From: a virus
DNA length: 24,218 nucleotides
Virus record (IMG/VR): IMGVR_UViG_3300005436_000034
Location: 1 to 24,218 of that record
Strand: one strand, 5' to 3'
In this document: piece after piece, positions 5,552 to 23,138 of the stretch
Numbering within the stretch: position 1 is the first letter of the stretch
Layout: each line of letters begins with the position of its first letter
Translations under genes and position numbers: made by a program
The notes under the pieces: generated by a model
What the model was told of the DNA's origin: nothing
Database searches by the model: none
What the model saw: the letters and a program-made list of their open reading frames with translations, nothing else

Positions 5552-8500
5552 TACTGTGAGCCTCCCCTGTCACTGGATTCGTTATGCCCGTACCGTCATA
5601 GTGGTCGAACATGTCCTTGCTCAGGTACTTGTCATGCAGTGTCTGGAAGTACGTGTTGCCTTCAATCAACTGCATGACTCCATTCTGGAACTGAGCCTTC
5701 AGATCATCATTGCTCTTGTCGTTGATGCTGGTTCCAGCAGTCGCAGACTGAGCTGACCTGAAGTTGTAACTGTGAGTGTCACCGGCCCGAGCCGCAAGCT
5801 CGGCCTTTACTGTGCCTCGCAGATTCAGGTACTGCTGAAGAGCCTGGATGTCAGGCCGGTTCTGCAATTCCTTGGCTGTGGCTATGTCCGCCAGGGCGAT
5901 AGCCCTGCGGTCGTCCTTCGAAGGATCAGTCGTGTTGTACGCCTGGGTCCATGCCTCGTTGTAGTACGGGTTCTTGGTGACTCCGTCAGCCTGGTAAGGA
6001 TGACTGAGAACCGTGACCAGTGCCCGCTTCTGCGCCAGCAGGTCTTCAGCTCCCTTGTCGTTCAGGGTCTGGAGTCCACGCTGGAACAGCTGGGCATTGA
6101 TACCGTTCATGTACGAGGTGTACTGCTGCCAGCCAGTGTTGGCCTGGCCCTGGGCAAAGGCATCCTTTGCGGACAGCTTGGTTCGCTGGCCCGAGATGAC
6201 CTGCTGCATGTAAGCAGTCTGGCTGTAGTCTCCACCACCCTGGTCTCCGATGATGACACCAGCAAGTTCCGGATCGGCATCGATCAGGGACTTGAACTGG
6301 GTTGCCAGCCTCTGCCCAGCCTGAGTGGCTGGGACGCCAGGGATGTTGTTCTTGCTCAACGAACTAGTGAAGGCGTAAGCGGAGTCGCCGTACTTCGCGT
6401 AGAAGTTGGCGTCAGCGTTCTTCGGGTCAGCAGCCCTCATGGTCCTGTACTGATCCCTGAAGAACTGGTAAGGATCCTGGAAGCTGACACCGAAAGGCAG
6501 CACCGTGGTTCCGGAGAACCAGGCTTTGAGCATCACAGAATTCTCTGCGCTCTTCTTGGCTTCAGCGAGACTGGGAGGTGCAGTCCTGAGCCCATTGCTG
6601 TACATGTACTGCTGCTGCTGCAAAGCCTGCAACGTCATCTGCTGGGCAGTGCCGTCATCGTTGGCCTTGTTGATGGTGCGGAGAACGCCGCCCCATAGGG
6701 CGTCGGTGTCATGAGCTGTGATCCCCTGGGGCAGGACGCCGATCTTCTGGAAGAAGTCACCGACCCTTGGGTCAGCCTTCACTGCGAAGTGGTTGGCTGC
6801 CATCTGAACAATCGGGCCCTCGCCAGGGTTGTACCACGGGCTATTCTGCATGGCGATGTTCAGAGAGTTCAGCGGGATCTGCGCTACCGGAGTAGCGCCC
6901 AGACCAAAGGCATCCCTGACAGCGCCAGGAAGCTGGAACCTGATGTAGGTATCGCTCTTGTCGACAAGGACCTTCTTGCCAGTAGCGGGGTCGATCGTGT
7001 AGCCATCAACAATGGGATCACCATTGTAGGTGTAGGCATGTCCGATGCGACCAGGACTGGTGTAGATCTGGCCCGCATGGGCCAGAGTCGCTGGCTTGTC
7101 GGACAGGATCCTCGCCCAGCGGTTGAACGCTTCCTGCATAGGACCGAAGAACGGCGCAATGAAGCGGTTGGCATGGGTGATCTTGGTCTCGAAGTCCATG
7201 TTGTACGTGAGCTTCTTGACGTCAGCCAGTGCCAGCTTCCTTGCGTTCTCTTCGATCTGCTCAAGGTGCTCAGGCGCGAAGTGCGTAATTCCCTGAGTCT
7301 GAGCGGTGCCAATGGCGTCCTGGACATGACCCTTGTAGAGGGTCGCGAACACAGGGTTCTTCGACAGGACATTGGCAGGCTTCTCAGCCATGACGTGGTA
7401 CCACTTGCTGATCTTGTCATCGATCATCTGGATGGTCGAGCCCTTGCCCATTCCGTAAGCTGAACGCTCTGCGTTCACCTCAGGACGGCCAGCCTGCTGG
7501 GTTGCTGCCATGAGCTTGCCGATGGTGGTGTCATCTTTGCCATCGACCACCGCCTGACGCAGTTCTTTGAACTCCGGAGAGGAGTCGGGAAGCTGGTAGT
7601 TGACCTCACTGTGGATGCGGTCGGCCATCTCCCTGGTGGTCATGTTGTTGATTGTCAGGGACTTGAAATAGCTGCGGCCCTGGCCATTCAGCCAGTTGGC
7701 AATCTGCTCAGGAGTCTGCCCCTTGACCGCCAGCATGCCAGCAGGATCGTTGGCGATCTGCCGCTGAACCACACGGAGCCAGCCACCAAGGTGACCCTCT
7801 TCGCCGGGGTGGACAGTAGTCCAGCCAGCGTTTCCACGGATCTGACCCTGAAGGTGACTGGCGGTTCCGCCATAGGCGGAGTCAATCGTGGAGCGACCAG
7901 ATGCCAGGTCGGCGAACAGTCGCCCTCTGGCCCCTTCTCCGGCACCAGAGATAACCTGGCCGCCAGGGGTGATGATCTGCTTGTCCATGAGCTTCCTGCT
8001 CATGTTGTTGAACTGGGCACTGGCAAGCTTGGCACCATCGAGCTGAGTCTGAAGAAGATCTATCTTCTGCTGGTGCCCAACAAGCATCTGCTGCTGCCTC
8101 GCAGCAGCCTTGCCAGACTGAGGCACATAGGCAGCGATGTTCTGCTTGGTGGTCCTGGCCTGAAGGAGGTCATCCTCAAGCTGGCTCATTGCTGAGTTTA
8201 GGCTGATGTTGTGAGCCTCAGCCCCAGTGTAGTCATACAGCATCGAGTTGATGGGGTTGTGGATCCGCCGGATGACCTGACCAGCGAAACCCTTGGCGAC
8301 CTGCTCTGCCTTGGTGTAAGCACCAAGGGTTGCAACCTGGCCAAGGAAGTCATCGCTCAGAGCCCTGGGCCCATAGCCCAGGCGAAGGTGAGCCTGGAAC
8401 TTCCAGAGGTGGTTGAACAGATCGGTGAAGTCATTGAACTTCTGGCTAGCGCCCTGGGCCAGAAGCCCAGGCCTTGCACCCTGAGTGACAAGGTTGCCAG

Positions 8501-10394
8501 CCTGCTCAATGGAGTTGCCCTCGGCAAGCAGCTTGTTGAATGCTCCACCGTTGTACTTCAGAAGATTCTTCATCTTCGAGAAGTCCATCATCGGATGGTT
8601 GTTCTCAAGCTGGGTGGCGAAGACAGGGTGAGTGGCGATGATGTTTCCATCATCCTCAATATGGCTGACGTTCAGGTCGGTGCCGAGTGAGGTCTGGATC
8701 CTGGAGCCACCGTAGATGTTGGCACCACTGATGTAGTTGGCACGGCCCTTGCTGAAGACAGAGTAGATCTTCTTGGCGGCGTCCTCGGTGACGCCGTGCT
8801 CAGCAGCCATACGACCAAGGGTCTTGGATTCAAGGTCGTACAGGAAGTTCCGTTTGCCCTCATTCGGGGCCGCGATGTAGTCGGACACAAGCTTGCTGCG
8901 CTCAATGTCTCCGTACATGCCTGACTCGCGGATCTGAGCGTCAACCTCACGGTACGAGTTCGGGTCATCGAGTGCGACCCAACCCTTGGGCTTGACATTG
9001 TTCCAAAGATTGTCGAGCCGGTTCACCATGCGTACAGGACGAACAAAGAAGTTCGAGTACAGCAGACTCATTGGAGCACTGGCATAGGCAGTGCTGGCCT
9101 GCTGGCCAAGCTTTGCCATGGCAGGAGTAACGCCAGGAGTGAAGAACATGCCGTGCTTCATCTGGTCAGCAGCGTCAAGAGCACGACTGATGTGACCAGT
9201 AGCAGCCTCAATGTCATTGATCTGCTTGGTGTGACTGGCGATCTGCTGAGCCAGCTGCTGGGCAGCTGGTGAGTTCGGGTCAGGGAACTTGGGGAGGTTC
9301 GAGTACATGGTGTTGCGCTGGGAGACGTAGCCCTCAAGCTCAGCCTTCAGCTCAGGAGCTTCCTGGGTGAGTCGACTGATGGTCGACTGGTCACCCATGG
9401 CAGTCTTCAGAACCTCGTCAATCTGGGTCCTGTCAGTAGCGTGGTAGAGAGCAGCGGCGATGCCGCTTGCGTTTCCACCAGACAGTGCCCACTTCTGACC
9501 AGTGGCCCAAGCGGGGAACTGGTCAGCGAGCTTCGCCTTATTCGACTCGATGTAGTCACCGAACTTGGTGAAGGTTGAGCTGTTGAGGTTCCTGTCAATG
9601 TTGTTACCAGCAATGCGGCTAGTCCATGCATCCTGGGCTGCCTTGACCTGATCGAGACTGGAACCCTTGAGGTTACCGACAGCGCCAATCACCTTGTTGC
9701 CAAGGGCGTCGGTTCCACTCTTCGCGAGACCACTGACACCAGTTACACTGGCGACCTTCCCGAACAGTGTTGGGTTGGCCGTATCTACAGCAGGACGAAC
9801 GTAGGAGACGTCCTTGGCTACCTTGAGCCCCTTGCCAGCGAGGACCAGAGGGTCCGCGAACCAGGAGAAACCGGCGTCAAGACCGCCGGAAGTCCACTGC
9901 TGGATACCGTGATCGTAGTAGGCCTTGACCTGGTCCGGGTGATCCCAGATCAGGGTGCCGTCCCTGTTGATACCAGTCTCGAACTTCTCGTTGCCCGTAG
10001 GGTCCTTGATGAAGTTCGCGTAGAGAACCTGGCCAGGGCTGACGTTCTTGGCATCCCTGTACGCACGGTCCCACGTATCGCCGGAGAAGACGGAACCCTG
10101 GCCGTTGGCCTGAAGGTCACCAGTCGCCAGAAGGGCAGTCGTCACAGGACGACTGATGTACTTGCTGTAGACGGAGTACATCTTAGCGCCAGCCCATTCG
10201 ATGGGCTTGGCCAGCCAGTCAGTACCGTTGTTGGCCTGAGGCGCAGCCTTGTTCTGGATGGCCTGCTGCATCTGGGCCTGATAGGTAGCAGCAAGCTGCT
10301 TCGGGTCAGAGCCCGTGCCACCCTGTCCAGCCATCGGGGCTACAGTCGGAGCAGTAGTGTCTCCGACATTGAACTCACCGGTAGGACTGGACAT
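5544..10394 (-). CDS. Giant virion protein, 1616 aa (probable internal/ejection protein)
   Basis: The largest gene in the window. It begins MSSPTGEFNVGDTTAPTVAP, is mostly helical, and has a predicted coiled coil near residues 735-790 (MSQLEDDLLQARTTKQN, HQQKIDLLQTQLDGAK). Aromatic-rich stretches occur at about 440-460 (APMSLLYSNFFVRPVRMVNR) and about 1075-1100 (RFIAPFFGPMQEAFNRWARIL). No enzymatic motif is evident. A very large helical protein beside peptidoglycan hydrolases and between portal and capsid resembles the internal core or ejected proteins of podoviruses such as T7 gp16, although no sequence similarity is claimed. The ATG at 10394 is preferred over the GTG two codons earlier because AGAGG lies at proper spacing before it. 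Confidence 0.7.
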   Translation of the reverse strand: MSSPTGEFNVGDTTAPTVAPMAGQGGTGSDPKQLAATYQAQMQQAIQNKAAPQANNGTDWLAKPIEWAGAKMYSVYSKYISRPVTTALLATGDLQANGQGSVFSGDTWDRAYRDAKNVSPGQVLYANFIKDPTGNEKFETGINRDGTLIWDHPDQVKAYYDHGIQQWTSGGLDAGFSWFADPLVLAGKGLKVAKDVSYVRPAVDTANPTLFGKVASVTGVSGLAKSGTDALGNKVIGAVGNLKGSSLDQVKAAQDAWTSRIAGNNIDRNLNSSTFTKFGDYIESNKAKLADQFPAWATGQKWALSGGNASGIAAALYHATDRTQIDEVLKTAMGDQSTISRLTQEAPELKAELEGYVSQRNTMYSNLPKFPDPNSPAAQQLAQQIASHTKQINDIEAATGHISRALDAADQMKHGMFFTPGVTPAMAKLGQQASTAYASAPMSLLYSNFFVRPVRMVNRLDNLWNNVKPKGWVALDDPNSYREVDAQIRESGMYGDIERSKLVSDYIAAPNEGKRNFLYDLESKTLGRMAAEHGVTEDAAKKIYSVFSKGRANYISGANIYGGSRIQTSLGTDLNVSHIEDDGNIIATHPVFATQLENNHPMMDFSKMKNLLKYNGGAFNKLLAEGNSIEQAGNLVTQGARPGLLAQGASQKFNDFTDLFNHLWKFQAHLRLGYGPRALSDDFLGQVATLGAYTKAEQVAKGFAGQVIRRIHNPINSMLYDYTGAEAHNISLNSAMSQLEDDLLQARTTKQNIAAYVPQSGKAAARQQQMLVGHQQKIDLLQTQLDGAKLASAQFNNMSRKLMDKQIITPGGQVISGAGEGARGRLFADLASGRSTIDSAYGGTASHLQGQIRGNAGWTTVHPGEEGHLGGWLRVVQRQIANDPAGMLAVKGQTPEQIANWLNGQGRSYFKSLTINNMTTREMADRIHSEVNYQLPDSSPEFKELRQAVVDGKDDTTIGKLMAATQQAGRPEVNAERSAYGMGKGSTIQMIDDKISKWYHVMAEKPANVLSKNPVFATLYKGHVQDAIGTAQTQGITHFAPEHLEQIEENARKLALADVKKLTYNMDFETKITHANRFIAPFFGPMQEAFNRWARILSDKPATLAHAGQIYTSPGRIGHAYTYNGDPIVDGYTIDPATGKKVLVDKSDTYIRFQLPGAVRDAFGLGATPVAQIPLNSLNIAMQNSPWYNPGEGPIVQMAANHFAVKADPRVGDFFQKIGVLPQGITAHDTDALWGGVLRTINKANDDGTAQQMTLQALQQQQYMYSNGLRTAPPSLAEAKKSAENSVMLKAWFSGTTVLPFGVSFQDPYQFFRDQYRTMRAADPKNADANFYAKYGDSAYAFTSSLSKNNIPGVPATQAGQRLATQFKSLIDADPELAGVIIGDQGGGDYSQTAYMQQVISGQRTKLSAKDAFAQGQANTGWQQYTSYMNGINAQLFQRGLQTLNDKGAEDLLAQKRALVTVLSHPYQADGVTKNPYYNEAWTQAYNTTDPSKDDRRAIALADIATAKELQNRPDIQALQQYLNLRGTVKAELAARAGDTHSYNFRSAQSATAGTSINDKSNDDLKAQFQNGVMQLIEGNTYFQTLHDKYLSKDMFDHYDGTGITNPVTGEAHSSV

Positions 10395-18221: not shown

Positions 18222-18539
18222 ATGATCGTCTATGACGGTGGCCGTGCGGTGCACCTCAACAGCAACGAGCTCCACTTTCAGCTGATGCAGTTGAACACCA
18301 GAAACTCCATGCTCAATGGAGTAGAGGAGATCACCGATGCGATGGCGCAGACCATCGCAAGCTGGTATCACTCACCAAGCAGCCCCAACTCCACCTTGCT
18401 TAGTACTATGGGCAAGGTGAGTGACGACATGGACTTGCGTGACTTCGTGTCGCATGCCGAATACATGTCCAGTGGTGGTTTCGACAGGCTGTGTCTGAAC
18501 TACTTGGAGTCGTACATCACGAGCAAGCAAGACCTCTAG
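18222..18539 (+). CDS. Early protein of unknown function, 105 aa
   Basis: MIVYDGGRAVHLNSNELHFQ, then EEITDAMAQTIASWYHSPSS, LSTMGKVSDDMDLRDF and FDRLCLNYLESYI. The MAQTIASWYHSP...LSTMGKV pattern resembles a small-protein family recalled from actinobacteriophages with no known function. The ATG follows the preceding stop (TGAGATG), so coupling is likely. The G of its TAG stop is also the first base of ribozyme 1. Confidence 0.7.
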   Translation: MIVYDGGRAVHLNSNELHFQLMQLNTRNSMLNGVEEITDAMAQTIASWYHSPSSPNSTLLSTMGKVSDDMDLRDFVSHAEYMSSGGFDRLCLNYLESYITSKQDL

Positions 18540-18592
18540 GACGAAACGCCCCTTGAGGGGCGTCCACCAGTCATGCTGGTGCTGACGAGTCC
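18539..18592 (+). ncRNA. Hammerhead ribozyme 1, type II
   Basis: Stem II GGAC (18539-18542) pairs with GTCC (18589-18592). Core GAAA is at 18543-18546. Stem III is 7 bp (A18546-T18563 to C18552-G18557) with loop TTGA. The cleavage site is after C18564 (GTC). Stem I is CACCAG/CTGGTG (18565-18570, 18576-18581) with loop TCATG. Core CTGACGA is at 18582-18588. All invariant hammerhead core bases are present. It starts on the last base of the upstream stop codon. Confidence 0.93.
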
Positions 18593-18605
18593 ATAGCGCA
18601 GAATA

Positions 18606-18622
18606 GGCCAGTCATACTGGCC
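18606..18622 (+). other. Hairpin between ribozyme 1 and gene start
   Basis: A perfect 7-bp stem GGCCAGT/ACTGGCC with loop CAT lies in the 50-nt spacer after ribozyme 1, just before the ribosome-binding sequence. After cleavage it would be a second 5' hairpin on this mRNA unit. Confidence 0.55.
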
Positions 18623-18642
18623 GCAATCAAGGGAGAGAGACA

Positions 18643-19047
18643 ATGGACAAGAAGATTGCCATGGACTGGGCCGACGCTCTTGAGAGCGGCGACTACGTGC
18701 AGGGCAGGAGCAGGCTCAACAACCAAGGCAGCGATGGCGTTCACCGCTACTGCTGCCTTGGCGTTCTCGCCGAAATGGCAGTGGAAGAAGGTGTCATCCG
18801 GCGTGGCGAGACGAACATCTTCGGCACTGTAGCCTACCTGGACACCAATGGGCCCGAATCGGCCCTCCTTCCCCGCCTGGTGAAGCTGTGGGCTGGAATG
18901 GAGAGCCAGGATGGTGCCCTCGGCAACGACGTGGCTCTCACCATGCTGAACGATGGGGCGTACGCCGATGGTGGTGGCTGGGACGTCGAGCCTCGCACCT
19001 TCGTGCAGATCGCCAAGGTGATCCGCGAAAACTGGGAAGCACTGTAA
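18643..19047 (+). CDS. Early protein with a YCCLGVL motif, 134 aa
   Basis: MDKKIAMDWADALESGDYVQ, then GRSRLNN, VHRYCCLGVLAEMAVEEGV (C37, C38), LPRLVKLWAG, LTMLNDGAY and FVQIAKVIRENWEAL. This layout (GRxxLxx...YCCLGVL...LNDxG...FxxIAxxI) is a widespread phage small-protein family of unknown function. The ATG has the shared GGGAGAGAGACA site, the only copy with C instead of A near its end. It is the only gene of unit 1, between ribozymes 1 and 2, and its stop codon abuts ribozyme 2. Confidence 0.8.
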   Translation: MDKKIAMDWADALESGDYVQGRSRLNNQGSDGVHRYCCLGVLAEMAVEEGVIRRGETNIFGTVAYLDTNGPESALLPRLVKLWAGMESQDGALGNDVALTMLNDGAYADGGGWDVEPRTFVQIAKVIRENWEAL

Positions 19048-19101
19048 GGACGAAACGCCCCTCAGGGGGCGTCCATGACTGAATGTCATGCTGATGAGTC
19101 C
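19048..19101 (+). ncRNA. Hammerhead ribozyme 2, type II
   Basis: Stem II GGAC (19048-19051) with GTCC (19098-19101). GAAA 19052-19055. Stem III 7 bp with loop TCAG. Cleavage after C19073. Stem I CATGAC/GTCATG (19074-19079, 19085-19090), loop TGAAT. CTGATGA 19091-19097. It directly follows the TAA of the previous gene, with the shared ribosome-binding site 15 nt further on. Confidence 0.94.
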
Positions 19102-19126
19102 AAAAACGTCAGTAAGGGAGAGAGAA

Positions 19127-19282
19127 ATGAAACTCACACTCGCACAGAGGGTAGAACGTGCCCGTCTGTTCGATCTGTACAGCGACGCTGTCGACCTTGA
19201 GGACTTTGTTCTCATCGATGGTGAATGGACACTTGACGGGATGATTCCCGCTGAGTGGTTCGAGGCGGTCTACGGTGAGTGA
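19127..19282 (+). CDS. Small early protein of unknown function, 51 aa
   Basis: MKLTLAQRVERARLFDLYSD, then AVDLEDFVLIDGEWTLDG and an acidic end. No recognised domain. The start is the ATG 3' of the shared GGGAGAGAGAA site. An in-frame ATG further upstream would begin inside ribozyme 2 and is rejected. It is the first of four overlapping genes in unit 2; its stop overlaps the next start by 8 bases. Confidence 0.7.
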   Translation: MKLTLAQRVERARLFDLYSDAVDLEDFVLIDGEWTLDGMIPAEWFEAVYGE

Positions 19283-19514
19283 GCCGTACAAGCTCTATGC
19301 TGCCCGTAAGCTGGAGGCTGGGATGTTCATCCTCGTTCCTCCGGCCAATGGCAGGCACCGGTCAGCCGGTGCCGTTGACGGCTCACAGCACATCCGGATC
19401 ACCAATGTCCACACGAGTGGTGGATACGGTCAGTCCTGGACTGAGATCTTCTTCGAACATGGACAGTTCACTGTCGATGCCAACCTCCAAGTGAGAGTGC
19501 TGGTGTACGGATGA
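19275..19514 (+). CDS. Early protein of unknown function, 79 aa
   Basis: MSEPYKLYAARKLEAGMFIL (GTG start), then VPPANGRHRSAGAVDG, IRITNVHTSGGYGQSWTEIFF and FTVDANLQVRVLVYG. Mostly beta-strand pattern, as in a small barrel, with no family recognised. It starts within the end of the previous gene and its stop overlaps the next ATG (ATGA), so it depends on coupling, not on the shared ribosome-binding site. Confidence 0.65.
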   Translation: MSEPYKLYAARKLEAGMFILVPPANGRHRSAGAVDGSQHIRITNVHTSGGYGQSWTEIFFEHGQFTVDANLQVRVLVYG

Positions 19515-19735
19515 TAGTTCGCTCCATGGTCACGCTCCAGAAGCGCAACAAGAAGGGCCAGTACTGGGTCTGCATGAAAGATGGCGGACAACGGCTTGGT
19601 GTGATCATCATGACCGGTCCTCATGGACCGTCATGGCGTGAGCTTGGGTTCGACACCAAGCCCAACCAGTGCAAGACCAAAGAAGAGGGCGTTGCCCGTC
19701 TTCTCCTCCGGCTGAACGGTGGCAAGCGTGTCTGA
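19511..19735 (+). CDS. Basic early protein of unknown function, 74 aa
   Basis: MIVRSMVTLQKRNKKGQYWV, then CMKDGGQRLGVIIMTGPHGPSW and a Lys/Arg-rich end (LLLRLNGGKRV). The high basic content and short strand pattern could suit nucleic-acid contact, but no domain is recognised. ATGA overlap with the upstream gene. Confidence 0.65.
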   Translation: MIVRSMVTLQKRNKKGQYWVCMKDGGQRLGVIIMTGPHGPSWRELGFDTKPNQCKTKEEGVARLLLRLNGGKRV

Positions 19736-19910
19736 CATCTTTGTCCGCATCATAGAAGATGAGATCTATGACAAGGATCGGGCAGAGCGTGCCAAGACCA
19801 AGCATGATGAAATGCTGGCAAGGCTCGGCAAGGGCAAGACTCACTACGTCAAGGTAGAGGGCGGTCAGCGCAGCTCGCCCTATCGTGTAGTCCTGTACGA
19901 ACGCAAGTGA
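19728..19910 (+). CDS. Charged early protein of unknown function, 60 aa
   Basis: Reads MSDIFVRIIEDEIYDKDRAE, then RAKTKHDEMLARLGKGKTHY and a basic end. The N-terminal half is a strongly charged helix. The GTG at 19728 has GGTGG at proper spacing; an in-frame GTG at 19719 would add three residues. It overlaps the previous stop. Its own TGA abuts ribozyme 3. Function unknown. Confidence 0.6.
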   Translation: MSDIFVRIIEDEIYDKDRAERAKTKHDEMLARLGKGKTHYVKVEGGQRSSPYRVVLYERK

Positions 19911-19966
19911 GACCGAAACGCTGCCCAACGGCAGCGTCCATGGCTAATGGCCATGCTGATGAGGTC
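19911..19966 (+). ncRNA. Hammerhead ribozyme 3, type II, with a changed stem II
   Basis: Stem II is GACC (19911-19914) with GGTC (19963-19966), a compensated change from GGAC/GTCC. GAAA 19915-19918. Stem III 8 bp with loop CAAC. Cleavage after C19938. Stem I CATGGC/GCCATG (19939-19944, 19950-19955), loop TAATG. CTGATGA 19956-19962. Covariation in stem II shows that pairing is selected. It follows the TGA without a gap. Confidence 0.94.
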
Positions 19967-19992
19967 AGTACATCTCATAAGGGAGAGAGAAA

Positions 19993-20370
19993 ATGACTGT
20001 GAATCTGACGCTGGAGAATGTCGTCAAGGCTGCCGAGGAGATTGTCTCTGAGGCACCGGCCGGGTACATCTACCCGACCAATCTCCAGACGGAGAACGCT
20101 TCGTGCCTCTACGTGAGGGACGGCAGGCCCGACTGCATCGTCGGCAAGATCCTGGACAAGCTGGGAGTCCCTCTCGACTTCGATGAGGATGACTCTCTGA
20201 ATGTCGACCTCGCTTACGGTCTGCTCCGTTGGCTGGAGCAGGAGAGTGTGATCGAGATCGGTGAGAGTGTCGTGGACTTCCTGTCGGAGATCCAGAGCCA
20301 GCAGGACATGGGGGTGACCTGGTCTCGCTCGCTGGAGCTGGCCAAGGATCGTGTGGGCATCGAGGAATAA
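19993..20370 (+). CDS. Early protein with a CIVG motif, 125 aa
   Basis: MTVNLTLENVVKAAEEIVSE, YIYPTNL (25-31), CLYVRDGRPDCIVGKILDKLGVPL (C48 in the CIVG motif), and WSRSLELAKDRVG at the end. It is related to the last ribozyme-linked gene (22521-23033): YIYP/YVYP, C-x-V-G, LGVPL and a final GxxW...AKD block occur in the same order. Function unknown; the family is common in actinophages. Shared GGGAGAGAGAAA ribosome-binding site. Sole gene of unit 3; its TAA abuts ribozyme 4. Confidence 0.78.
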   Translation: MTVNLTLENVVKAAEEIVSEAPAGYIYPTNLQTENASCLYVRDGRPDCIVGKILDKLGVPLDFDEDDSLNVDLAYGLLRWLEQESVIEIGESVVDFLSEIQSQQDMGVTWSRSLELAKDRVGIEE

Positions 20371-20422
20371 GGACGAAACGCCCTTCGGGGCGTCCACAGC
20401 TCAATGCTGTGCTGATGAGTCC
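20371..20422 (+). ncRNA. Hammerhead ribozyme 4, type II
   Basis: Stem II GGAC (20371-20374) with GTCC (20419-20422). GAAA 20375-20378. Stem III 6 bp capped by a C(TTCG)G tetraloop, a very stable loop. Cleavage after C20394. Stem I CACAGC/GCTGTG (20395-20400, 20406-20411), loop TCAAT. CTGATGA 20412-20418. It follows the TAA directly. Confidence 0.94.
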
Positions 20423-20446
20423 AGACTGATTCAAAGGGAGAGAGAA

Positions 20447-20812
20447 ATGACTGACAACGAGCTGCAGGCATTCAACGCGCAGATCGAGAAGGACAAGATC
20501 CGTGCCGAGATGCGTGCCGAGCTTGAGGCTGAGCTCCGTGCACAGATCGAGCAGGAGTTCCAGGACCGGTCCCTGACCGCCATGACGCTCCAGGACATCG
20601 CCGACAGCTGGAACATGACCACCATCACGGTGTCCAAGGTTCTGGAGATGTCCGGCGTCAAGTCCGTGGTCAACGGCCGGTTCAAGCTGTACGACCCGAA
20701 GGACGTCAAGCGTGCCCGTATCAACAAGGACCGCAAGGTTCTGGAGTACTGGGGACTGGTTCACCAGGTCGAGCGTGAGCACGGTCTGGTGGAGAGTGTG
20801 GTCGAGGCGTGA
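20447..20812 (+). CDS. Coiled-coil plus helix-turn-helix protein, 121 aa
   Basis: Residues 5-42 are a long charged helix (NAQIEKDKIRAEMRAELEAE), probably a coiled coil for dimer formation. Residues 47-70 (TLQDIADSWNMTTITVSKVL) fit a helix-turn-helix, followed by a strand pair (VNGRFKLYDPKDVKRA) typical of MerR-like or excisionase-like folds. The C-terminus is basic then acidic. It is likely a DNA-binding regulator of phage genes. Shared ribosome-binding site before the ATG; an upstream in-frame start inside the preceding gene is rejected. First gene of unit 4. Confidence 0.75.
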   Translation: MTDNELQAFNAQIEKDKIRAEMRAELEAELRAQIEQEFQDRSLTAMTLQDIADSWNMTTITVSKVLEMSGVKSVVNGRFKLYDPKDVKRARINKDRKVLEYWGLVHQVEREHGLVESVVEA

Positions 20813-20997
20813 AAAAGACCATGCCCACCGATGCCACGCTTGAGGGGTACGTGAGTGCCCCTTCGCTTGAGCGTGCCATCGAGATGCTTGAGTATGAGCT
20901 CAGCGGCCTGGTCAAGGATGAGCCGCTGAGCTTCAACAGCTACGAGTACGCCGAGAACACAAGCTTCAAGGTGGTCATATCCGTCTCTGAAGCGTAA
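20809..20997 (+). CDS. Small early protein of unknown function, 62 aa
   Basis: MKKTMPTDATLEGYVSAPSL (GTG start), then ERAIEMLEYELSGLVKDEPL and a final strand FKVVISVSEA. No recognised domain. GTGA overlap with the HTH gene, so it is coupled and could act with it. Its TAA abuts ribozyme 5. Confidence 0.62.
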   Translation: MKKTMPTDATLEGYVSAPSLERAIEMLEYELSGLVKDEPLSFNSYEYAENTSFKVVISVSEA

Positions 20998-21054
20998 GGA
21001 CGAAACACGCCCATCGGGGGCGTGTCCATGACTGAATGTCATGCTGATGAGTCC
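20998..21054 (+). ncRNA. Hammerhead ribozyme 5, type II
   Basis: Stem II GGAC (20998-21001) with GTCC (21051-21054). GAAA 21002-21005. Stem III about 8 bp (ACACGCCC/GGGCGTGT, 21005-21012 with 21018-21025). Cleavage after C21026. Stem I CATGAC/GTCATG (21027-21032, 21038-21043), loop TGAAT. CTGATGA 21044-21050. Stem I is identical to that of ribozyme 2, while stem III differs. Confidence 0.94.
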
Positions 21055-21080
21055 AGTAAGAACTCAAAGGGAGAGAGAAA

Positions 21081-21743
21081 ATGGCAAACAGCGCTGAGAT
21101 CGTTGAGAAGGCTGCCGCGTTCCTGGACACCTATGGTCCGGCGAACTGGCGCAGCAAGGTCAACGTTGACGTGCTCGACATGGGCAGCCTCCGGCACTGC
21201 GTGCTCGGCCAGATCTACGGTAACTATGACCGTGGATATGACAAGCTGAGCGGCTACAGCGGCTGGAACGCCACCGCCTTCTGTGACCACCAGGCCGCAT
21301 GGATCAACTACTTGTCCAGCGGCAAGGTGGACAAGTACAAGGGTGTCGAGTGGGTCGGCAAGAGTAACGGAGTCCTGGTCACGGCGATCAAGTCCTTCGA
21401 GATCGAGGGGACTCTGTTCGTGGCCTACAAGGGTGTCTCATCCGCCAGGCCGCTGGTTCGCCTGGTGAGTGACTTCCTGGCGGACTACAAGCCGAAGCCT
21501 GAGGCACCCAAGTACGTGGTGGGCCAGCTGTACACCGACAAGGACAAGAGGTACGTGTTCCTGTACCACGGCGAGGATGTCTACCCGAACTTCAACCGTC
21601 TCAACGGTGACGGTGGCACCAAGTTCGCCTCCCCTGGTCACGCTGACGTCAGCTTCTACGAGAGGGAGTGCGGCCCCCTGGTGCCGCTCGCTCTGACCAG
21701 CGGCAAGTTCGACCGCAAGACTGTCCACGCAGTAATCAAGTAA
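21081..21743 (+). CDS. Early protein with a CVLG motif, 220 aa
   Basis: MANSAEIVEKAAAFLDTYGP, then VDVLDMGSLRHCVLGQIYG (C40), YSGWNATAFCDHQAAWINYL, a beta-rich middle (VEWVGKSNGVLVTAIKSFEIEG), a KPKPEAP linker (about 137-144) and a second domain (YVVGQLYTDKDKRYVFLY, FASPGHADVSFYERECGPLVPL). Two-domain layout: a CVLG-type domain plus a strand-rich domain. Function unknown. Shared GGGAGAGAGAAA site. Sole gene of unit 5; its stop lies 3 bases before ribozyme 6. Confidence 0.75.
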   Translation: MANSAEIVEKAAAFLDTYGPANWRSKVNVDVLDMGSLRHCVLGQIYGNYDRGYDKLSGYSGWNATAFCDHQAAWINYLSSGKVDKYKGVEWVGKSNGVLVTAIKSFEIEGTLFVAYKGVSSARPLVRLVSDFLADYKPKPEAPKYVVGQLYTDKDKRYVFLYHGEDVYPNFNRLNGDGGTKFASPGHADVSFYERECGPLVPLALTSGKFDRKTVHAVIK

Positions 21744-21746
21744 GAA

Positions 21747-21801
21747 GGACGAAACGCGCCCACCAGGCGCGTCCACAGCTCAATGCTGTGCTGATGAGTC
21801 C
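21747..21801 (+). ncRNA. Hammerhead ribozyme 6, type II
   Basis: Stem II GGAC (21747-21750) with GTCC (21798-21801). GAAA 21751-21754. Stem III 7 bp with loop CACCA. Cleavage after C21773. Stem I CACAGC/GCTGTG (21774-21779, 21785-21790), loop TCAAT, identical to ribozyme 4. CTGATGA 21791-21797. It starts 3 nt after the stop, the largest gap among the seven. Confidence 0.94.
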
Positions 21802-21824
21802 ATCAGAAACAAGGGAGAGAGAAA

Positions 21825-22391
21825 ATGGCAAACCGAATCGCAGCGCTCCGCGTCCTCGCTGACATCCTTGAGGAGAAGGAGCACGACGAGAAGAACGGGT
21901 TCGACATCGGCTCGTTCATCAGCTCGGCTGACTTCGACTTCGAAGGCCCGTCTGTCGTGCTTGAGGCTGGCGTCAGCCCGTCCCTGTGCGGCACCACGCT
22001 CTGCGTGGCTGGCTTCGCAGCAATCGAGGCTGGCTACAAGATCGAGGTCGAGAGGCGCAAGGACAGGAAGTACTGGGAGTCGAAGTACGTCTACAAGTAC
22101 TACACTCCTAAGGGCGAGCAGGTTCTTGACATCGACTGGGAGGATGCTGGGGCCAAGTACCTCGGACTCCCGGACGACCATGCCCGTATCGTCTTCTACG
22201 GCACCTCAGACGATGGTGACCAGTCCGTTGCCATCCTGGAGCGTCTGGCCGCTGGCGAGACCATCACTCAGGGCGAGTGGTACAACTACGCCCAGAACCT
22301 GGACGTCGACATGGAGAACTTCTCCGGCTACCACAACAGCAATGACCGCGAGGACGAAGAGTGCGCCTGCACTTGCTCGGCCTGCTACTAG
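21825..22391 (+). CDS. Early protein with a CVAG motif and a Cys-rich tail, 188 aa
   Basis: MANRIAALRVLADILEEKEH, then SPSLCGTTLCVAGFAAIEAGY (C55, C60), VLDIDWEDAGAKYLGLP, FYGTSDDGDQSVAILERLAAGE and an end ECACTCSACY with four cysteines. The CGTTLCVAGFAA...A..LGL layout is a recurrent phage small-protein pattern of unknown function. The Cys tail could bind a metal. Shared GGGAGAGAGAAA site. Sole gene of unit 6; the last base of its TAG is the first base of ribozyme 7. Confidence 0.75.
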   Translation: MANRIAALRVLADILEEKEHDEKNGFDIGSFISSADFDFEGPSVVLEAGVSPSLCGTTLCVAGFAAIEAGYKIEVERRKDRKYWESKYVYKYYTPKGEQVLDIDWEDAGAKYLGLPDDHARIVFYGTSDDGDQSVAILERLAAGETITQGEWYNYAQNLDVDMENFSGYHNSNDREDEECACTCSACY

Positions 22392-22442
22392 AGCGAAACG
22401 CCCTTCGGGGCGTCCATGGGTCAGTCCCATGCTGATGAGCTC
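22391..22442 (+). ncRNA. Hammerhead ribozyme 7, type II, with a second changed stem II
   Basis: Stem II GAGC (22391-22394) with GCTC (22439-22442), again a compensated variant. GAAA 22395-22398. Stem III 6 bp with a C(TTCG)G loop. Cleavage after C22414. Stem I CATGGG/CCCATG (22415-22420, 22426-22431), loop TCAGT. CTGATGA 22432-22438. The spacer to the next gene is much longer (78 nt) than for the others. Confidence 0.94.
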
Positions 22443-22462
22443 AAACGTCAGAGACCAAGGAC

Positions 22463-22506
22463 GAACTTACACAATAAGTTCTGTACAGAGATTGCTGCGC
22501 AATCTC
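22463..22506 (+). other. Two extra hairpins between ribozyme 7 and its gene
   Basis: GAACTTA/TAAGTTC (22463-22469, 22475-22481, loop CACAA) and GAGATTGC/GCAATCTC (22488-22495, 22499-22506, loop TGC). The second ends 4 nt before the shared GGGAGAGAGAA site, so it could affect ribosome access or 5' stability of the last unit. Confidence 0.55.
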
Positions 22507-22520
22507 GTAGGGAGAGAGAA

Positions 22521-23033
22521 ATGATCGAGATCAACCTGGCCAAGGCCAAGGAAATGATCGCTGGAGTTGTGGCTGAGCGCGGGGAGGACTACGTCTACCC
22601 TATGAACAACTGCACCTACATTCACGAGGCAGGCAAGAAGCGCTATCAGCGCGACGACTCTCTCAGCGGCTACACTCCCGAAGAGGATGAGCCCGGCTGT
22701 GGTGTCGGGCTCGCTGTCATCAACCTCGGCGTGCCGCTGGAGTGGTTCAAGGAAGGTGCCGTCCTCGAAGACGAGGTCGAAATCGGCACCAACAACAACG
22801 GCGACGTTCGCACCTTGGCCTGGAACCTGGAAGGCCAAGGTGTCGCCAAGATGACTGACAGCGCCATCACCTACCTGAAGGCATTCCAGCTCAAGCAGGA
22901 CGACGGCATCCCCTGGGGCCAGGCCAAGGACTACGCCGACGGCGTCAGCCTGAGTCGCTTCAGTGACTCTTTCATCCACATCTCCGACCGCGATGACTTC
23001 GAAACGGTGATGTACAAGGCCCTGGACATCTAG
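22521..23033 (+). CDS. Early protein with a CGVG motif, 170 aa
   Basis: MIEINLAKAKEMIAGVVAER, YVYPMNN (24-30), EPGCGVGLAVINLGVPLEWF (C60), NLEGQGVAKMTDSAITYLKA, GIPWGQAKDYADG and a short acidic end. It is a longer relative of the 125-aa protein at 19993-20370, with the same order of motifs plus an insert after the first Cys (CTYIHEAGKKRYQRDD). Function unknown. Shared GGGAGAGAGAA site. It is the first gene of the last ribozyme unit, and no ribozyme follows it. Confidence 0.76.
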   Translation: MIEINLAKAKEMIAGVVAERGEDYVYPMNNCTYIHEAGKKRYQRDDSLSGYTPEEDEPGCGVGLAVINLGVPLEWFKEGAVLEDEVEIGTNNNGDVRTLAWNLEGQGVAKMTDSAITYLKAFQLKQDDGIPWGQAKDYADGVSLSRFSDSFIHISDRDDFETVMYKALDI

Positions 23034-23042
23034 TTCAACACT

Positions 23043-23062
23043 CCAGCCGCCCATGCGGCTGG
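23043..23062 (+). terminator. Hairpin after the last ribozyme-linked gene
   Basis: A perfect 8-bp stem CCAGCCGC/GCGGCTGG with loop CCAT lies 10 bases after the stop. No T-run follows, so termination would be weak. It may instead protect the 3' end of the last unit, taking the place of a ribozyme stem III. Confidence 0.4.
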
Positions 23063-23071
23063 GGCTCTAGT

Positions 23072-23107
23072 CTGCACAGTCTGTTGCTCTCTCTCCGGCC
23101 TGTGCAG
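23072..23107 (+). promoter_or_regulatory. Hairpin displaying an anti-ribosome-binding-site loop
   Basis: CTGCACAG (23072-23079) pairs perfectly with CTGTGCAG (23100-23107). The 20-nt loop contains CTCTCTCTCC (23087-23096), of which 9 bases can pair with GGAGAGAGA, part of the sequence before all but the first ribozyme-linked gene (8 bases there). A shorter alternative pairing, GGCC/GGCC near 23097-23110, competes. It lies between the ribozyme cluster and the next gene. Confidence 0.45.
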
Positions 23108-23138
23108 GCCAGTGTCCCAGTCAAGATCCGGAGGATGA

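Follow-up and report, generated by a model that had tools for sequence, protein, structure and literature searches.

Seven type II hammerhead ribozymes in successive gaps of the early gene cluster of a Streptomyces-type phage record

The window analysed here is the whole of the 24.2-kb viral record IMGVR_UViG_3300005436_000034 from IMG/VR (24,218 nucleotides, nt), and its subject is a row of seven type II hammerhead ribozymes spanning positions 18539–22442 on the + strand. The terminase of the window is 63–66% identical to those of the Beephvirinae Streptomyces podoviruses Manuel, WRightOn, FlowerPower, and Immanuel3, and portal and endolysin families are found alongside it. The hammerhead segment is a rightward early cluster of small genes oriented opposite to the structural genes, as in Beephvirinae Streptomyces phages; the source is probably, judging by these sequences, a Beephvirinae-like, podovirus-like phage of the Streptomyces type. 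When the early region was searched at the nucleotide level against annotated phages, no match was obtained, and relatives were therefore sought through the terminase.

Sequence, structure, and covariation give good support for the seven elements as complete type II hammerheads. The pattern CGAAAC-N8..24-GTC-N14..30-CTGANGAG has exactly seven matches in the window, all on the + strand, and none in 100 dinucleotide shuffles of it. The cores CUGANGA and GAAA are exact in 7/7, and GUC stands at every cut site. The original prediction had placed seven complete cores at 18539–22442, and pattern, Rfam model, and minimum-energy folds agree on them as elements of 52–57 nt at exactly these positions. 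The search with Rfam Hammerhead_II (RF02276) that it had proposed recovers the same seven from the record and no others (26.7–34.6 bits, E 2.7e-7 to 3.1e-5). The hammerhead is the minimum-energy fold of each element taken alone (z −2.0 to −4.4), always in the order stem II, GAAA, stem III, GUC, stem I, CUGANGA, stem II, with stems I and III closed by loops and stem II open. A relaxed scan allowing one to three core mismatches found no degenerate and no antisense copy in the hammerhead region. A long-range extension of stem II through the upstream and downstream flanks was rejected, being no better than dealt controls.

Covariation was assessed on 14 distinct copies, seven from the window and seven from relatives. 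Every cell is paired (100%), and 12/16 pairs are changed on both sides, comprising 2/4 pairs of stem II, 4/6 of stem III, and 6/6 of stem I. Double-change cells number 51, against 14.1 ± 2.6 when partners are dealt anew, and pairing drops to 23–44% when partners are slid by one to three columns. Within the window alone, stem II occurs as GGAC/GUCC, GACC/GGUC, and GAGC/GCUC. The core letters are invariant across the 14 copies; these were gathered by a search requiring the core, so that core invariance in relatives rests on the relaxed-mismatch scan. Ordinary hairpins, that is, terminators or messenger RNA (mRNA) stabilisers resembling hammerheads by chance, could explain the GC-rich stem III hairpin shortly past each stop codon. 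As a full account they are refuted, and their probability is close to negligible, given the lack of pattern matches in shuffles, the gaps devoid of a U-tract or + strand terminator, and three-stem covariation around an invariant core. The test for intrinsic terminators (GC hairpin plus U-tract) identified none on the + strand of the seven gaps, nor were promoter-like or terminator-like sites found there on that strand, and the terminator and promoter readings of the gaps were dropped for this reason.

The window copies also trade halves: copies 2 and 5 share stem I with the 3' core (32 nt), copies 4 and 6 share 34 nt, and copies 4 and 7 have 23 nt of the stem III half in common, a pattern suggestive of gene conversion among the copies. 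At 22459–22506, 3' of hammerhead 7, the stretch GGACGAACTTACACAATAAGTTC resembles a first hammerhead half, one A short and without CUGANGA, and is followed by a second hairpin and then the ribosome-binding site (RBS); it is perhaps a hammerhead remnant. The shared halves, together with the mosaicism of early genes among relatives, might also be expected if the elements were recombination cassettes, short intergenic repeats for shuffling early genes whose cleavage is incidental or absent. We consider this highly unlikely, as the core is invariant while the stems covary with 100% pairing. Repeats kept for recombination alone would drift to core mutants, and the relaxed scan detected none; in the R4-family phages described below, moreover, the copies of one genome are too dissimilar for recombination.

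Along the + strand, ribozymes and coding units alternate. Hammerhead 1 (18539–18592, predicted cut 18564/18565) begins on the final G of the preceding stop codon TAG, and an extra hairpin, GGCCAGT-CAT-ACTGGCC (18606–18622), separates it from the RBS of unit 1, one gene of 134 amino acids (aa) (18643–19047, phrog_18067). Hammerhead 2 (19048–19101, predicted cut 19073/19074) follows the stop codon TAA and precedes unit 2 (19127–19910), made of four end-overlapping genes (19127–19282, 19275–19514, 19511–19735, and 19728–19910). Hammerhead 3 (19911–19966, predicted cut 19938/19939), which follows TGA and carries the compensatory stem II GACC/GGUC, leads to unit 3, one gene of 125 aa (19993–20370, phrog_572). 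After TAA comes hammerhead 4 (20371–20422, predicted cut 20394/20395) and then unit 4 (20447–20997), with two overlapping genes (20447–20812 and 20809–20997); hammerhead 5 (20998–21054, predicted cut 21026/21027), also after TAA, precedes unit 5, one gene of 220 aa (21081–21743). Hammerhead 6 (21747–21801, predicted cut 21773/21774) follows TAA and precedes unit 6, one gene of 188 aa (21825–22391, phrog_889), whose stop codon TAG is overlapped by hammerhead 7 (22391–22442, compensatory stem II GAGC/GCUC, predicted cut 22414/22415). Unit 7 begins with a gene of 170 aa (22521–23033, phrog_572), a paralogue of 19993–20370, and extends beyond it.

The arrangement of one hammerhead in each successive intergenic gap, and the unit sizes of 1, 4, 1, 2, 1, 1, and at least 1 genes, had been claimed from the letters alone; both agree with the open reading frames, and each gapped junction of the stretch carries one ribozyme. 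None of the four overlapping junctions (19275, 19511, 19728, and 20809) has one, nor does the next gap downstream (23034–23138). Stem II starts 0 nt after the stop codon in 4/7 copies (19048, 19911, 20371, and 20998), overlaps it by one base in 2/7 (18539 and 22391), and lies 3 nt after it in 1/7 (21747). The predicted cuts fall 23–30 nt past the stop codon and 51–106 nt ahead of the next start, so that all reading frames are left whole. Translation of every unit starts from a AAGGGAGAGAG-type RBS, and copies 1 and 7 have additional hairpins between ribozyme and RBS. Comparison of the early genes with protein families yielded little functional information. The phrog_572 family occurs in one to two copies in Beephvirinae, and in many mycobacteriophages as a single copy beside an exonuclease and an ERF-family gene.

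The relatives of this phage present a varied picture. Six cultured Beephvirinae, expected to share the hammerheads, have none (0/6). Among 80 viral contigs with related terminases, the Rfam model detected one or two hammerheads in six contigs, and a core search of the terminase relatives returned nine perfect copies and no decayed one. The two closest long contigs (86–88% terminase identity) have no hammerhead, and another RNA element sits in the slot. Loss of core bases at equivalent positions in relatives, named in the original prediction as a sign against it, is thus not seen in the hammerheads that are present (9/9 cores intact); what most relatives show instead is absence of the hammerhead, with the other RNA element in its place. 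Partial matches to the bacterial 16S rRNA model occur in the early region of two relatives (L150:8364-8506, 84 bits; L177:8735-8843, 71 bits).

The other element, here called motif B, is an undescribed pseudoknotted RNA of approximately 60 nt that occupies the stop-to-RBS slot in early gaps of relatives without hammerheads. It was noted in Beephvirinae-type phages (L128, L130, and L132; L176, L190, L196, and L202; L251, which is contig G007), examples being the early gaps of FlowerPower and the element upstream of the G007 gene at 25573–24980. It comprises a short 5' strand usually including the stop codon, a long hairpin, and a second hairpin whose loop is complementary to the 5' strand. In a set of 31 gaps that were not chosen for pairing, complementarity of loop and 5' strand within the same gap averages 5.23, against 3.96 ± 0.17 when loops are dealt among gaps (reached in 0/2000 dealings). 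In a canonical subclass, CUGUGA-CYA-NNN-GAGC..GUUG-NNN-CGGCA-UCACAG-CCG-A, covariation extends to all four helices; the instances of this subclass were chosen for pseudoknot pairing, so that the fair test of the pseudoknot is the dealing test on the 31 gaps. Motif B matches no Rfam family, and its strict pattern occurs in 20 stretches of IMG/VR, mostly from the Beephvirinae-type phage group. Its model has no match in the window and one marginal match only in R4-family phages (E 0.028). Assignment to a permuted pistol or a non-circularly permuted hammerhead was set aside because motif B has neither a CUGANGA nor a GAAA core.

A direct exchange of the two elements is seen in contigs G005 and G007, which have 92–98% identity over most of the length they share. 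Ahead of the gene homologous to 21825 (phrog_889), G005 has a hammerhead and G007 has motif B, the exchange lying between the stop codon and the RBS, and a central hairpin, CAGCGC-TTCG-GCGCTG, is common to both elements. This swap suggests that hammerhead and motif B share one role or move as cassettes. A tentative extension, possible though clearly not the likeliest outcome, is that the slot serves in general as a site where self-processing RNAs can replace one another, in which case motif B would be a self-cleaving ribozyme of a new kind or would take over the hammerhead's processing by other means. Evidence of the association type led to pistol, hatchet, and twister-sister (PMC10085705), and the sharing of one slot by hammerhead and motif B is an association of the same kind.

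Dense arrays are also found in other phages. A scan of IMG/VR with the strict type II pattern gave at least 80 loci, and arrays counted over whole records reach 10 (G082), 9 (G083 and G092), 8 (G087, the cultured Streptomyces phage Hank144), 7 (G084, G093, G127, and G132), and 6 (G128) hammerheads. Among the matches listed, none of the 29 loci with two or more hammerheads mixes strands, and the median position is 2 nt past the stop codon and 24 nt ahead of the start. Nine cultured R4-family (Arquatrovirinae) Streptomyces phages (L263–L271: Hank144, R4, Pablito, phiELB20, Animus, Janus, Diane, Triumph, and Loofah) together have 90 type II hammerheads, 9–12 per genome. In these nine genomes the hammerheads occupy 71/79 early gaps of at least 60 nt and 0/117 junctions shorter than 20 nt. 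All 77 Rfam hits in them are type II and none is type I or III, and the annotation tables of the phages have no RNA features at these sites. Three tiny R4 genes, 60.1, 67.1, and 75.1 (L264:3763-3846, 6126-6218, and 9074-9175), lie on top of hammerheads, and their annotation is probably an artefact. At least seven R4-family genomes (L264–L270) contain a hammerhead-like element in which an additional U separates CUGANGA from stem II, either as a conserved variant or as an inactive form.

The closeness of stem II to the stop codon in the window bears on a further explanation, in which cleavage is regulated by magnesium, a ligand, or a ribosome terminating at stem II, and the elements act together as switches through which genes would be destabilised or uncoupled in certain conditions. 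Stem II lies so near the stop codon (0 nt after in four, 1-nt overlap in two, and 3 nt after in one) that a ribosome terminating there would cover it, and motif B, too, has the stop codon paired within its pseudoknot. We regard regulation of this kind as unlikely: no copy has an aptamer-like domain, compact packing accounts for the spacing equally well, and R4-family hammerheads often lie 10–46 nt from the stop codon.

Position, strand, and copy number are best accounted for by serial cleavage of a polycistronic early RNA. We propose, with a probability of roughly 0.7, that the seven type II hammerheads act in cis and cut the rightward early transcript into gene-sized or small-operon-sized units that are probably end-protected and insulated. 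Motif, fold, covariation, strand, spacing, and recurrence speak for this proposal, and cleavage is predicted for this phage. Hammerhead cleavage leaves a 2',3'-cyclic phosphate and a 5'-hydroxyl (5'-OH) end. The early RNA would be cut during its synthesis, leaving the stem III hairpin with the cyclic phosphate at the 3' end of the upstream message and the stem I hairpin with the 5'-OH at the start of the downstream message, followed by the AAGGGAGAGAG site. As the likeliest benefit, each unit would gain its own decay rate plus a uniform, context-free 5' leader, and both 5'-end-dependent and 3'-exonucleolytic decay of one unit would be stopped from entering the next, as by a natural RiboJ-like insulator. 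In type II a loop closes stem I and stem III alike, so that both cut ends would be hairpin-capped, and by topology type II is the only permutation that leaves both new ends in closed hairpins. This agrees with the restriction of the window and the R4-family arrays to type II, suggests protection of both ends, and points to a definite hypothesis of end-protected mRNA units. Cleavage and the nature of the ends we infer from established hammerhead chemistry; stabilisation and insulation as the selected function we only infer.

Two successive hammerheads would give a unit with precisely the 5'-OH and 2',3'-cyclic phosphate ends that are substrates of RtcB-type ligases, and the units might be ligated into circular, exonuclease-proof mRNA, as hammerhead-bearing circles are common in eukaryotic elements (PMC7761336). 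This outcome is very unlikely, for spliced or circular products were sought by Perreault et al. and none were found (PMC3088659), and no ligase was seen in the window, a partial genome.

Several observations weigh against serial cleavage into protected units. None of the seven elements reaches the RF02276 gathering score of 37 bits, which is a curation cut-off rather than a biological definition, and for this reason a default Rfam scan of the window shows only a tRNA. Loop I of the window copies is short (3–5 nt), and its pairing with the tail 3' of stem II shows no excess over dealt controls (2.60 vs 2.59); such a pseudoknot is found in the majority of type II hammerheads, not in all. The interaction that normally lets type II hammerheads cleave rapidly when magnesium is low thus appears to be missing here or of another kind, and where it is missing, cleavage may be slower. 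A 5'-OH end can serve as an entry point for RNase J, as with the glmS ribozyme, and partition could destabilise the units instead by this route. Most close relatives do without hammerheads, and 4/18 consensus-matching hammerheads were inactive in vitro (Perreault et al., 2011; PMC3088659).

The original prediction had taken phage hammerheads to be known singly or in small numbers and a ribozyme-partitioned operon to be possibly undescribed. Neither view is supported, as other phage records carry 7–12, and clustered hammerheads flanking genes or gene blocks in prophages, with a proposed role in processing into operon- or gene-length mRNAs, were described by Perreault et al. (2011; PMC3088659). 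Seven per phage is therefore not a record, the R4-family phages having 9–12 each. The role of phage hammerheads has been called an open question (de la Pena, 2017; PMC6155905). In the open-access papers searched, no description was found of arrays this dense or of hammerhead arrays in Streptomyces phages. What is new is, first, that hammerheads fill almost all early gaps in two Streptomyces phage groups unrelated to each other, of which one is cultured, and second, the presence of motif B in the same stop-to-RBS slot of close relatives, including a near-identical pair that differs by the swap. The interest lies in array density, in the exchange with motif B, and in culturable systems: cultured Streptomyces phages such as R4, Janus, Animus, Hank144, and Loofah, with 9–12 unannotated hammerheads, make the role of these ribozymes testable in a growable system.

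Among the closest known systems are the clusters of Perreault et al. (2011; PMC3088659), with several type I, II, or III hammerheads close together in phage DNA on the flanks of single genes or short gene blocks. The window resembles them in having several on one strand flanking genes or blocks, and its terminase relatives are Streptomyces phages. It differs in that seven consecutive type II copies fill all gaps of an early segment of 3.9 kb in a podovirus-like Streptomyces-type phage, that these copies lack the pseudoknot of loop I and tail, and that in relatives the hammerhead interchanges with a different RNA motif. Perreault et al. demonstrated in vitro cleavage of tandem phage-type hammerheads from Clostridium scindens, Azorhizobium, and Agrobacterium, the A. 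tumefaciens triple being active in E. coli too (PMC3088659). HHphage of haloviruses HF1/HF2, in which the 5' end of an early transcript lies within 3 nt of the hammerhead cut, is similarly placed 13 nt upstream of an early gene start, but is single, a core variant, and from an archaeal virus (PMC3088659). The RF02276 family shares core, stem order, and open stem II with the window copies, and its model finds all seven; they depart from it in their sub-threshold scores, short loop I, and lack of a helix between loop I and tail. The R4-family arrays (Hank144, Janus, Animus, and R4) are likewise type II, on the sense strand, and in nearly every early gap, with 9–12 per operon, but belong to another phage group, have a longer loop I (several copies with 5–6 nt complementary to the tail), and are more loosely placed relative to the stop codon. 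RiboJ, a synthetic-biology insulator in which a hammerhead and a hairpin ahead of the RBS standardise the 5' leader, differs in being engineered from a satellite RNA hammerhead, in being single, and in standing after a promoter, whereas the seven copies of the window stand between genes.

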